The position numbers were made by a program, and so were the translations under genes. Source: Oscillospiraceae bacterium (GTDB taxonomy: Bacteria > Bacillota > Clostridia > Oscillospirales > SIG627). From it: 64,000 nt of DNA. The DNA is taken from contig SVTV01000016.1 in NCBI GenBank assembly GCA_015063605.1, positions 1 to 64,000 of the forward strand, in the 5' to 3' direction. Shown one piece after another: positions 14,128 through 57,395 of this stretch (within the stretch, counting starts at the first letter, position 1; every line of letters begins with the position of its first letter). The notes under the pieces are model-generated. The model was not told where the DNA came from, did not search any database, and worked only from the letters and a program-made list of their open reading frames with translations.

Positions 14128-14157
14128 GGGATATTGACATAAAAATATCAAATAACA

Positions 14158-14296
14158 GTTTTTCGGGGACAGGTGAAATTCCGTACCGGCAGTACAGTCT
14201 GCGAGCCTTATGGCTGAATGGGTGTGATTCCCATACCGACAGTTACGTGCATATCCTGTAATTGGGTGTTGCATTACAGTCTGGATGAGAGAAAAC
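14158..14296 (+). promoter_or_regulatory. FMN riboswitch (RFN element)
   Basis: The core bases of the RFN consensus are present in order: GGTGAAATTCC, ACCGGCAGT, CTGCGAGCC, GTGATTCCCATACCGACAGT, and the closing AGTCTGGATGAGAGAA. The ends can pair as P1 (GTTTT with AAAAC). A terminator at 14316-14347 lies between the aptamer and ribU, so FMN should cause early termination. Confidence 0.95.
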
Positions 14297-14315
14297 AAAA
14301 CACTTTTAACGTGCC

Positions 14316-38839: not shown

Positions 38840-38868
38840 TTGACAAAAAAATTCACTTTTGATATAAT
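38840..38868 (+). promoter_or_regulatory. Consensus sigma-A promoter entering the first 92-bp array
   Basis: TTGACA (38840-38845), 17 bp, TATAAT (38863-38868) with TGA in front: full consensus plus extended -10. Transcription would start near 38875 and run through the whole repeat array toward cysK. Confidence 0.88.
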
Positions 38869-39138
38869 AAGCGCAAATAAGTACAGTTCGAACAAAAACG
38901 TGCGCTTAACAAAATTGTGCGTCTGCACGCACAATTTTCCTGCTGCAGCCATGCTATAATAAATAAGTACAGTTCGAACAAAAACATGCGCTTAACAAAA
39001 TTGTGCGCTCTTGCGCACAATTTGCCTACTGCAGTTATGATATAATAAGCGCAAACAACTGCTGTACGAACAAAAACATGCGCTTAACAAAATTGTGCGT
39101 CTGCACGCACAATTTTCCAACTGCTATTATGATATAAT
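38863..39138 (+). repeat. 92-bp tandem repeat array A (three units plus a final -10)
   Basis: Units begin at 38863, 38955 and 39041, with a last TATAAT at 39133-39138; periods are 92, 86 and 92 bp (the second unit lacks GCGCAA after TATAATAA). Each full unit holds TATAAT, then TAAGCGCA and 25 bp later its inverse TGCGCTTA, then a hairpin AAAATTGTGCG/CGCACAATTTT with a loop that varies (TCTGCA; the second unit has a longer stem and TCTT loop). All four TATAAT boxes are preceded by TGA or TGC (extended -10). The array ends 38 nt before the cysK start. The same unit forms array B at 57089-57368. Confidence 0.93.
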
Positions 39139-39176
39139 AACAGTAAATGATAACAAATGACGGAGGGAAGAGATAT

Positions 39177-40100
39177 ATGGCGAAAATAGTATGTTCCGCA
39201 GATGAATTGATAGGAAGGACTCCGCTTCTGGAGCTTCGGAATATAGAGAAAAAGTACGGACTTGAAAGCAAGATAATAGCAAAGCTTGAATTTTTTAATC
39301 CCGCAGGCTCGGTAAAAGACCGTGTTGCAAAGAAAATGATAGACGATGCCGAGAAAAGCGGAAGGCTTAAAAGCGGCTCCGTGATAATTGAGCCTACCTC
39401 GGGCAATACGGGAATAGGTCTTGCCTCTGTTGCGGCGGCGAGAGGCTATAAAACGATCATTGTTATGCCCGATACCATGTCGATGGAAAGGCGTAAGCTT
39501 ATGAAGGCATACGGCGCACAGCTCGTTTTAAGTGACGGAAAGCTCGGTATGAAGGGAGCTATCGCAAAGGCGGAGGAGCTTGCGGCGGAAATACCCGACA
39601 GTATTATTGCGGGACAATTTGTCAATCCTTCGAATCCCAAAGCGCACAGAGAGACCACGGGCCCCGAAATATATGAGGATACCGACGGCAATGTGGATAT
39701 ATTCGTTGCGGGCGTCGGTACGGGAGGTACCGTTACGGGTACGGGTGAGTATCTGAAATCGAAGAACGAAAATATAAAGGTGGTTGCGGTCGAACCCGAA
39801 TCATCTCCCTTCCTTTCAAAGGGCGTTGGAGGTGCTCATGCTATTCAGGGTATCGGTGCAGGCTTTGTTCCCGATGTGCTGAACACAGAGGTATATGACG
39901 AAATAATAACAGTGAAAAACGAAGAAGCATATGAATGGGCAAGGGAGGTCGGAAAAACCGAGGGTATCCTTATAGGAATTTCCTCGGGAGCGGCTCTTTG
40001 CGCCGCCGTAAAGCTTGCAAAGGAGAATAAAGGTAAGAATATAGTTGTGATCTTCCCCGATTCCGGTGACAGATATCTTTCCACAGATCTTTACGAATAA
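39177..40100 (+). CDS. cysK: Cysteine synthase (O-acetylserine sulfhydrylase)
   Basis: A 307-residue PLP enzyme that makes cysteine from O-acetylserine and sulfide. The PLP lysine is Lys47 in NPAGSVKDR; TSGNTG (about 74-79) binds substrate and GTGGT (about 178-182) the PLP phosphate. Length is normal for CysK and there is no C-terminal CBS domain as in cystathionine beta-synthase. GGAGG lies 10 nt upstream of ATG 39177, so the in-frame ATG 39147 is not used. The gene sits directly behind the 92-bp array and the last TATAAT is 38 nt before the start. No cysE is nearby. Confidence 0.95.
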   Translation: MAKIVCSADELIGRTPLLELRNIEKKYGLESKIIAKLEFFNPAGSVKDRVAKKMIDDAEKSGRLKSGSVIIEPTSGNTGIGLASVAAARGYKTIIVMPDTMSMERRKLMKAYGAQLVLSDGKLGMKGAIAKAEELAAEIPDSIIAGQFVNPSNPKAHRETTGPEIYEDTDGNVDIFVAGVGTGGTVTGTGEYLKSKNENIKVVAVEPESSPFLSKGVGGAHAIQGIGAGFVPDVLNTEVYDEIITVKNEEAYEWAREVGKTEGILIGISSGAALCAAVKLAKENKGKNIVVIFPDSGDRYLSTDLYE

Positions 40101-41894: not shown

Positions 41895-41917
41895 CAATAA
41901 ATGAGGACATTTCAACC

Positions 41918-42070
41918 GATAGCTCTCCACAAAAAGTGACAGAATGCAAAATATTCTCCTGCATTCCGACGTGAGGAACGCTCGCCGTTCCCGACATCTC
42001 GGCGAAAAGCCCTTTCTCCGTCCCTGCGAGAGGTTGTTACACGGATACTGATGCGTTTCGCGCCTCTATC
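41918..42070 (-). promoter_or_regulatory. Lysine riboswitch (L box)
   Basis: Read on the minus strand the conserved parts come in order: GATAGAGGCGCG, ATCAGTA, GGAGAAAGG, GCCGAGAT, CTGTCA and GTGGAGAGCTATC. The ends pair as P1 (GATAG/CTATC). With the terminator at 41866-41894 this predicts shut-off by lysine. Confidence 0.93.
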
Positions 42071-42088
42071 TTTTGTATTAATACCATG

Positions 42089-44065: not shown

Positions 44066-44240
44066 GTGAAATCGTTCGCTTACGCTCACGGTGAAATAAT
44101 TTCCTTACGGAAATTGTGAAATATCTCACTACGTTCGATGTGAAATGAAATTTGCTGCATTCACGTCAGCGAACATTTCACATTTGCGAAGCAAATATTT
44201 CACAGCAAAGCTGTTTCACTTGCCCGAAGGGCAAATTTCG
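44066..44240. repeat. GTGAAAT palindromic repeat array
   Basis: GTGAAAT occurs at 44066-44072, 44091-44097, 44116-44122 and 44140-44146, and its inverse ATTTCAC at 44175-44181 and 44197-44203 with a variant GTTTCAC at 44213-44219. Between the copies lie short stem-loops, several with GAA or TTAC loops: AATTTCC-TTAC-GGAAATT, ATTTGC-GAA-GCAAAT, TTGCCC-GAA-GGGCAA. The first copies are about 25 bp apart. It is non-coding and sits just downstream of tRNA-Pro. Confidence 0.8.
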
Positions 44241-44274
44241 TTGAAAAGCCTCGTCGAAAGACAAGGTTTTTTTC

Positions 44275-57065: not shown

Positions 57066-57094
57066 TTGATAATCTGTCTACTCTATGATATAAT
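57066..57094 (+). promoter_or_regulatory. Sigma-A promoter entering array B
   Basis: TTGATA (57066-57071), 17 bp, TATAAT (57089-57094) preceded by TGA. The position relative to the repeat is the same as at array A. Confidence 0.83.
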
Positions 57095-57368
57095 AAGCGC
57101 AAACAAGTACGGTGCGAACAAAACTATGCGCTTAACAAAATTGTGCGCAGAGACGCACAATTTTCCGGCTGCAGCTAAGATATAATAAGCGCAAATGACT
57201 ACTGTGCGAACATAACCATGCGCTTAGCAAAATTGTGCGCAGAGACGCACAATTTTCCGGCTGCAGCTAAGATATAATAAGCGCAAATGACTACTGTGCG
57301 AACAAAACCATGCGCTTAACAAAATTGTGCGCTGAACCGCACAATTCCCGAATCCGGAAAAGTATAAT
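57089..57368 (+). repeat. 92-bp tandem repeat array B (three units plus a final -10)
   Basis: Units begin at 57089, 57181 and 57273, with a last TATAAT at 57363-57368; periods are 92, 92 and 90. Each has TAAGCGCA, then TGCGCTTA (TGCGCTTA-G in the second unit), then the hairpin AAAATTGTGCG/CGCACAATTTT with loops CAGAGA, CAGAGA and CTGAAC. Units 1 and 2 share an identical end CCGGCTGCAGCTAAGA. Only the first -10 here has TGA in front. The array ends 27 nt before the DUF2809 gene start. Confidence 0.93.
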
Positions 57369-57395
57369 AATAGCAAACAAATAAGGAGGAGAGAT

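Follow-up and report, generated by a model that had tools for sequence, protein, structure and literature searches.

A dispersed 92-bp promoter-hairpin unit, probably mobile, at extended -10 promoter cores of an Oscillospiraceae bacterium

The tandem array located upstream of a cysK-like gene in an Oscillospiraceae bacterium is probably composed of copies of a small, non-autonomous mobile sequence of 92 bp that inserts at TATGATATAAT, the core of strong extended -10 promoters. The dispersal of this unit, one empty site, the target sequence, an enrichment of -35 hexamers and the covariation of the hairpin were all observed in the genome. The array had previously been described in a sequence-only reading; that the unit is dispersed and probably mobile, and is not a device of cysK, lay beyond the view of that reading.

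Results

Structure of the array upstream of cysK

In the window, which is the whole analysed stretch of 64,000 nucleotides, the array fills positions 38869-39138, with no gap after the promoter that precedes it, and is bounded by a divergent gene for a protein of 667 aa upstream and by cysK downstream (Table 1). The promoter is a locus-unique sequence whose downstream edge is the insertion point; this perfect match to the consensus lay within the interval considered in the sequence-only reading and went unmentioned there. The promoter-hairpin repeat array itself, which that reading described as tandem 92-bp units, is confirmed as three head-to-tail units, with corrections: the length holds for units 1 and 3 and not for unit 2, and a repeat search of the array gave three copies with spacings of 86 and 92. 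An extended -10 closes each of the three units, and the boxes expected from the earlier description, including a fourth TATAAT near cysK, were all located (38863-38868, 38955-38960, 39041-39046 and 39133-39138), each with TGn on its 5' side. The inverted pair TAAGCGCA/TGCGCTTA, with its halves 25 bp apart, exists in units 1 and 3 only, as unit 2 has lost the left half. The stems of the array measure 11-12 bp, and the proposed pattern of conserved stems and varying loops is weak within the array, where units 1 and 3 have the same hairpin and that of unit 2 differs slightly, and strong genome-wide. The term "promoter cassettes" proved apt in that every 92-bp unit has an extended -10. The full-unit consensus is AAGCGCAAAYAACTGCWGTGCGAACAAAAACATGCGCTTAACAAAATTGTGCGNNNNNNCGCACAATTTTCCAACTGCTRTTATGATATAAT.

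Table 1. Coordinates of the array upstream of cysK and of other features of the window
Feature	Position	Strand	Description
Native promoter before the array	38840..38868	+	TTGACA-17-TATAAT, TG preceding the -10; sigma-A-type, 12/12 consensus
Unit 1	38869..38960	+	92 bp; right end TGCTATAAT
Unit 2	38961..39046	+	86 bp; without AAGCGC (left dyad half deleted); right end TATGATATAAT
Unit 3	39047..39138	+	92 bp; youngest; right end TATGATATAAT
Dyad left half, unit 1	38869..38875	+	AAGCGCA, of the 33-bp-spaced dyad
Dyad right half, unit 1	38901..38907	+	TGCGCTT
Hairpin, unit 1	38911..38938	+	12-bp stem
Hairpin, unit 2	38997..39023	+	
Hairpin, unit 3	39089..39116	+	12-bp stem
Last -10 box	39133..39138	+	38 bp 5' of the cysK start codon
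cysK-like gene	39177..40100	+	PLP enzyme (PALP domain), downstream of the array
Second array of the 92-bp-unit family	57086..57373	+	Three units before a DUF2809 gene; TTGATA-17-TATAAT at the left edge
FMN riboswitch	14155-14300	+	
Lysine riboswitch	41912-42076	-	Upstream of an antiporter-like gene
Gut-1 RNA	44170-44243	-	Adjoining a tRNA

Dispersal within the genome and absence from other genomes

The copy census was obtained by sequence and covariance-model searches of one MAG of 2.67 Mb. Approximately 22 loci were detected by blastn and approximately 27 by the covariance model, with approximately 48 units, and a search with the 301-bp array gave 52 matches within its own genome (best non-self E = 6e-84). 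The loci, designated below by contig, contain from one to five full units, with local duplication in C56, C32b, C17 and C23. Diverged subfamilies were found in C23, C40/C10 (two contig ends), C45 and C61:50851, the last of which has lost the hairpin; the hairpin is also absent in C39, and the right -10 has decayed in C42, C55 and C61. The array of contig C23 (4173-4660; L079/L160), which comprises five units plus a partial sixth with the hairpin GAAATATTGTC/GACAATATTTC and precedes a cysteine desulfurase-like gene, is an older subfamily that shares its architecture with the main family. On contig C32 (111940-112311; L025), an array whose inner units have lost TATAAT and acquired an extra inverted repeat, CGAAG...CTTCG, precedes an ECF sigma factor-like gene. 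On C5, C10, C40, C30 and C48, the distance from a copy to a contig end is at most about 1.4 kb, and in four of these five cases it is no more than 360 bases. Assembly is therefore likely to be interrupted at the arrays, and the census may underestimate the number of copies.

The genes located 3' of the arrays have unrelated functions: cysK, DUF2809, NUDIX, formate/nitrite transporter, MFS, GH38 mannosidase, AAA_14/DUF4143, rhamnosidase, histidine phosphatase, ECF sigma, SSF symporter, desulfurase, response regulator and lipoproteins. By our reading, the units are oriented along the strand of the next gene at 21 of the 23 assignable loci and against it at two.

The search of the genome and its relatives for the unit, which the earlier reading had proposed, found a family in its own genome and nothing credible in 21 other genomes of the family, 393 of the order and 390 of the class. 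The unit was also absent from the plasmids and phages searched, and the exact core from species-genome (GTDB) contigs and viral contigs. We therefore call the unit species-confined in the sense that it was not found outside this genome among the genomes searched, which include no member of the same genus. Two weak model matches in relatives are ordinary terminators and not units, the box pattern gave single chance matches in 4 of the 393 order genomes, and isolated TGCGAACAAA motifs belong to coding DNA or other repeats. The cysK upstream regions of other bacteria, with proteins up to 75% identical, have ordinary promoters and no array. Regulation specific to cysK was rejected, as no such array stands upstream of the cysK genes of relatives.

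Probable insertion at the core of extended -10 promoters

All 24 loci whose left edge is of the promoter type have an intact left TATAAT. A -35-like hexamer (at least 4/6) occurs at exactly 17 bp in 13 of these loci, with mostly 0-3 at neighbouring spacings; over spacings of 16-18 bp, 14 such hexamers were counted versus 3.7 expected, and hexamers with at least 5/6 were found in 9 of the 24 loci versus 0.44 in shuffles. Since a -35 at 17 bp often accompanies the intact left -10, in DNA that is locus-unique 5' of the box, the units at these loci immediately follow true -10 boxes. A left-edge -10 is missing from three old loci (C9b, C40/C10 and C45), which counts against insertion at this core. 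The genome contains 59 copies of TATGATATAAT versus 3 of a reversed control, approximately 40 of them outside the arrays, and most of the inspected unoccupied sites are provided with a -35 and followed by a leader; promoters of this genome thus frequently have TATGATATAAT as their core.

The locus C5 consists of exactly one 92-bp unit placed at TATGATATAAT inside another dispersed repeat. Its joined flanks align unbroken to intact copies of that repeat, one of which belongs to this genome (C26:456-585, 86%) and several others to different genera (among them G031, 90%, and G044, 91%). With few exceptions, these empty-site copies have one TATGATATAAT at the junction, and C5 has two, flanking the unit, with a net gain of 92 bp; a 4-bp TATA target duplication and a shared recombination core fit this junction equally. 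By comparison of the aligned copies, the clean empty site shows mobility at this one locus. As no obvious gene promoter forms the target in C5, recognition seems to depend on the sequence and not on promoter function. The target repeat (contig C5, 157-382, L014/L163; L220, L221 and L232) has hairpins between TGATATA boxes, ...TATGATATAATATCCGKTCC..., and is present in 13 of the 58 genomes searched across the order; a further repeat of the same genome, CTCCTTTACACAAAGGAGGCATGGGTTTGTGCG-like, is located on contig C37 near 15639 (L156).

The 75-bp core of cysK unit 3 is identical to that of C35 unit 2, and the cores of C5 and C7 differ from it by one and two bases, respectively; the flanks of these young copies are unrelated. 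Judged from sequence, near-identical cores in unrelated flanks point to recent movement. From the core shared by cysK unit 3 and C35 unit 2, the cysK units 1 and 2 diverge by no less than 11%. The young copies C5 and C7 have no -35 and do not clearly precede a gene, which speaks against promoter cores as the target. A paralogue adjoining C35 was considered as a further empty site and rejected, its promoter being similar and its leader not alignable.

Variation in the left cores falls mainly on positions 1, 2 and 5 of TATGATATAAT, and in young right cores on positions 10-11 (C7, TATGATATATT; C32a, TATGATATAAA), which places the exchange point most likely within TATA; the left -10 would always be perfect because its last two bases arrive with the unit. 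Duplication of the full TATGATATAAT as the sole explanation was rejected, as the right cores keep the TTATG of the element even where the left core is TGTGA. Neither a transposase or recombinase with matching ends, in an assembly that is an incomplete MAG, nor a longer element with the ends of the unit, among the matches in the assembly, was found. As to candidate movers, the single Y1 transposase of the genome, of the IS200 type, has different end hairpins; regarding an integron attC site, GCGCTTAAC resembles an R'' core, but it lacks a GTTRRRY partner to match, and C23/C40 do not conserve AAC.

A hairpin maintained as structure

Pairing in the hairpin and in the AAGCGC/GCGCTT dyad reaches 96% across 26 units. 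When the diverged subfamilies are included, two-sided changes amount to 36 cells versus 9.9 in shuffles, compensatory changes affect 6 of the 11 hairpin pairs, and the covariation score is 0.295 versus at most 0.123 with the partners slid. When arms were swapped between loci, the observed pairing was never reached in 20,000 permutations. The covariation and arm-swap results therefore indicate that the hairpin is kept as structure. Testing the hairpin for covariation had been suggested in the sequence-only reading, whose view that the conserved stems point to structure is upheld by the strong covariation between loci.

Discussion

Proposed mode of spread

Insertion at TGnTATA would place AAGCGC...hairpin...TTATGATATAAT directly behind the -10 of the target, and the right end of the unit, TTATGATATAAT, would rebuild the target. 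Since the unit ends in the target core and recreates TATGATATAAT, copies would stack head to tail, with a -10 remaining beside the leader of the gene, and since the targets are mostly promoter cores, the arrays would run toward the downstream gene. Arrays could grow both by new insertions, as for cysK unit 3, and by the local duplication noted above; upstream of cysK, insertion would have occurred at least twice, with units 1 and 2 being old and unit 3 recent. Transcription from the native promoter would start at the array edge, the extra extended -10s would add starts inside the array, and the cysK mRNA would gain up to three stable hairpins.

Conservation of a hairpin that can fold suggests that movement includes a single-stranded DNA step or depends on a recombinase that reads structure. 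That the hairpin persists while its sequence changes hints that single-stranded DNA is recognised in folded form, possibly as in HUH or integron-type reactions. A more specific version, which we hold tentatively and somewhat short of probable, is a promoter-homing unit, for which a dedicated recombinase would read the folded hairpin and join it to the TATA of TGnTATAAT, so that each insertion yields both a new promoter and a new target.

Alternative explanations

The dyad might instead mark a resident regulon, in which the unit combines a promoter with an operator over the start site for one regulator, and copies have spread and been kept by selection. The dyad centres are 33 bp apart, about three helical turns; one pair covaries from A-T to G-C in several loci, the right half is nearly invariant, and nearly all first units keep the left half, all of which speaks for an operator. 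The left half is at -6 to -1 relative to its -10 and would act as DNA: with a canonical start about 7 nt past TATAAT, it would not be in the RNA of that promoter. Against a regulon, several inner units have lost the left half and retained GCGCTT, the downstream genes have no common function, the young copies stand away from genes, and the cysK genes of relatives have ordinary promoters without the unit. We consider a regulon unlikely.

The sequence-only reading had proposed duplicated small-RNA genes or attenuators. For a multi-copy small-RNA family, in which the extended -10 would drive an RNA of about 70 nt ended by the hairpin, promoter and hairpin are well placed, the covariation is strong, each unit RNA (66-74 nt) is more stably folded than almost every one of 200 dinucleotide shuffles (z -3.2 to -3.7), and the unpaired core GUGCGAACAAA is conserved. 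However, the terminator scan found no terminator-like site on the + strand: the main-family stem is followed by TTTTCC only, in place of the U-tract that a GC stem would need for intrinsic termination, and the T-run is gone in the C23 and C40 subfamilies, which keep the stem. A U-tract that does not persist makes a terminator or small-RNA gene unlikely; moreover, two loci have no hairpin, and the Rfam covariance models gave no riboswitch or other RNA family at the gathering score. Small RNAs are in our judgement quite improbable, and the claim of duplicated small-RNA genes is not sustained. An attenuator for each gene, with a hairpin that stops RNA polymerase or lets it through on a signal, would suit the position between promoter and gene, as would the decayed right -10 of C42, C55 and C61, where the gene would depend on read-through. 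The weak U-tract (four Ts and then CC), the unrelated downstream genes and the lack of a conserved alternative pairing, the antiterminator candidate GUGCG with the stem CGCAC failing in C32b and C23, argue against it; an attenuator is very improbable, and this part of the earlier proposal likewise lacks support.

Implications

If the mobile-unit reading is true, a 92-bp sequence lands on the promoters of one gut-type bacterium and restores its own target in doing so, which would be a simple route to multiplied start sites and leader hairpins before genes. The repeated changes in the start regions of unrelated genes would then constitute a natural experiment on promoter rewiring, and array length would be expected to differ between strains, altering the expression of cysK, cysteine desulfurase, transporters and others. 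Should the promoter-homing version be true, the sigma-A -10 box itself would be the target of a class of mobile elements.

Comparison with known elements

To our knowledge, no small element has the -10 core as its target. REP/REPIN sequences and IS200/IS605-type ends are short and non-autonomous, contain a conserved hairpin that can fold, and are inserted next to a fixed sequence of a few bases. The 92-bp unit resembles them in its foldable hairpin and its insertion beside a fixed sequence without clear target duplication, but differs in that no RAYT-like partner or matching ends were found; the one Y1_Tnp gene, IS200-like with other hairpins, is not a repeat-flanked transposase of the REP/REPIN-RAYT kind.

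Compared with MITEs in general, the unit is likewise small, non-coding, dispersed over approximately 27 loci and inserted, as the empty site for C5 indicates. Its ends, AAGCGC... and ...TATGATATAAT, are not inverted, the right half of the dyad being internal, and match no host transposase element within the assembly. BrickBuilt of Porphyromonas gingivalis is a MITE containing minisatellite and sigma70-like promoter sequences (PMC4596501, PMC10969869). It shares with the 92-bp unit family the character of a small mobile repeat with tandem repeats and sigma70-like promoter sequences; in BrickBuilt the minisatellite lies inside the MITE, whereas here the whole unit is both the tandem module and the insertion unit.

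The BOX elements of Streptococcus pneumoniae have distinct A, B and C modules and IS-like terminal inverted repeats (PMC3049150). Like the 92-bp unit, they are small interspersed intergenic repeats with variable tandem modules, whose length changes by module gain or loss (PMC3049150), and the number of full units here varies from 1 to 5 between loci. The transcribed hairpins of BOX and its effects on neighbouring genes (PMC3049150) would also have counterparts in the 92-bp unit. Unlike BOX, the arrays do not follow a boxA-(boxB)n-boxC order; they start and end at a TATAAT core, consist of one unit type with its own extended -10 and no terminal inverted repeats, and sit at promoter cores.

The Correia element of Neisseria is a MITE that exceeds the 92-bp unit in size and has terminal inverted repeats; one copy lies directly downstream of the mtrCDE promoter (PMC10969869). 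Both elements are small and mobile, and have sigma70-type promoters immediately upstream of genes (PMC10969869); the extended -10 of the main-family units and their mostly co-directional orientation (21/23) agree with this. Unlike Correia, the unit has no terminal inverted repeats, has TATGATATAAT as its target and stacks in tandem. On the best reading, the unit is a new small mobile element similar to BOX and Correia, with the extended -10 core as the site to which it homes.
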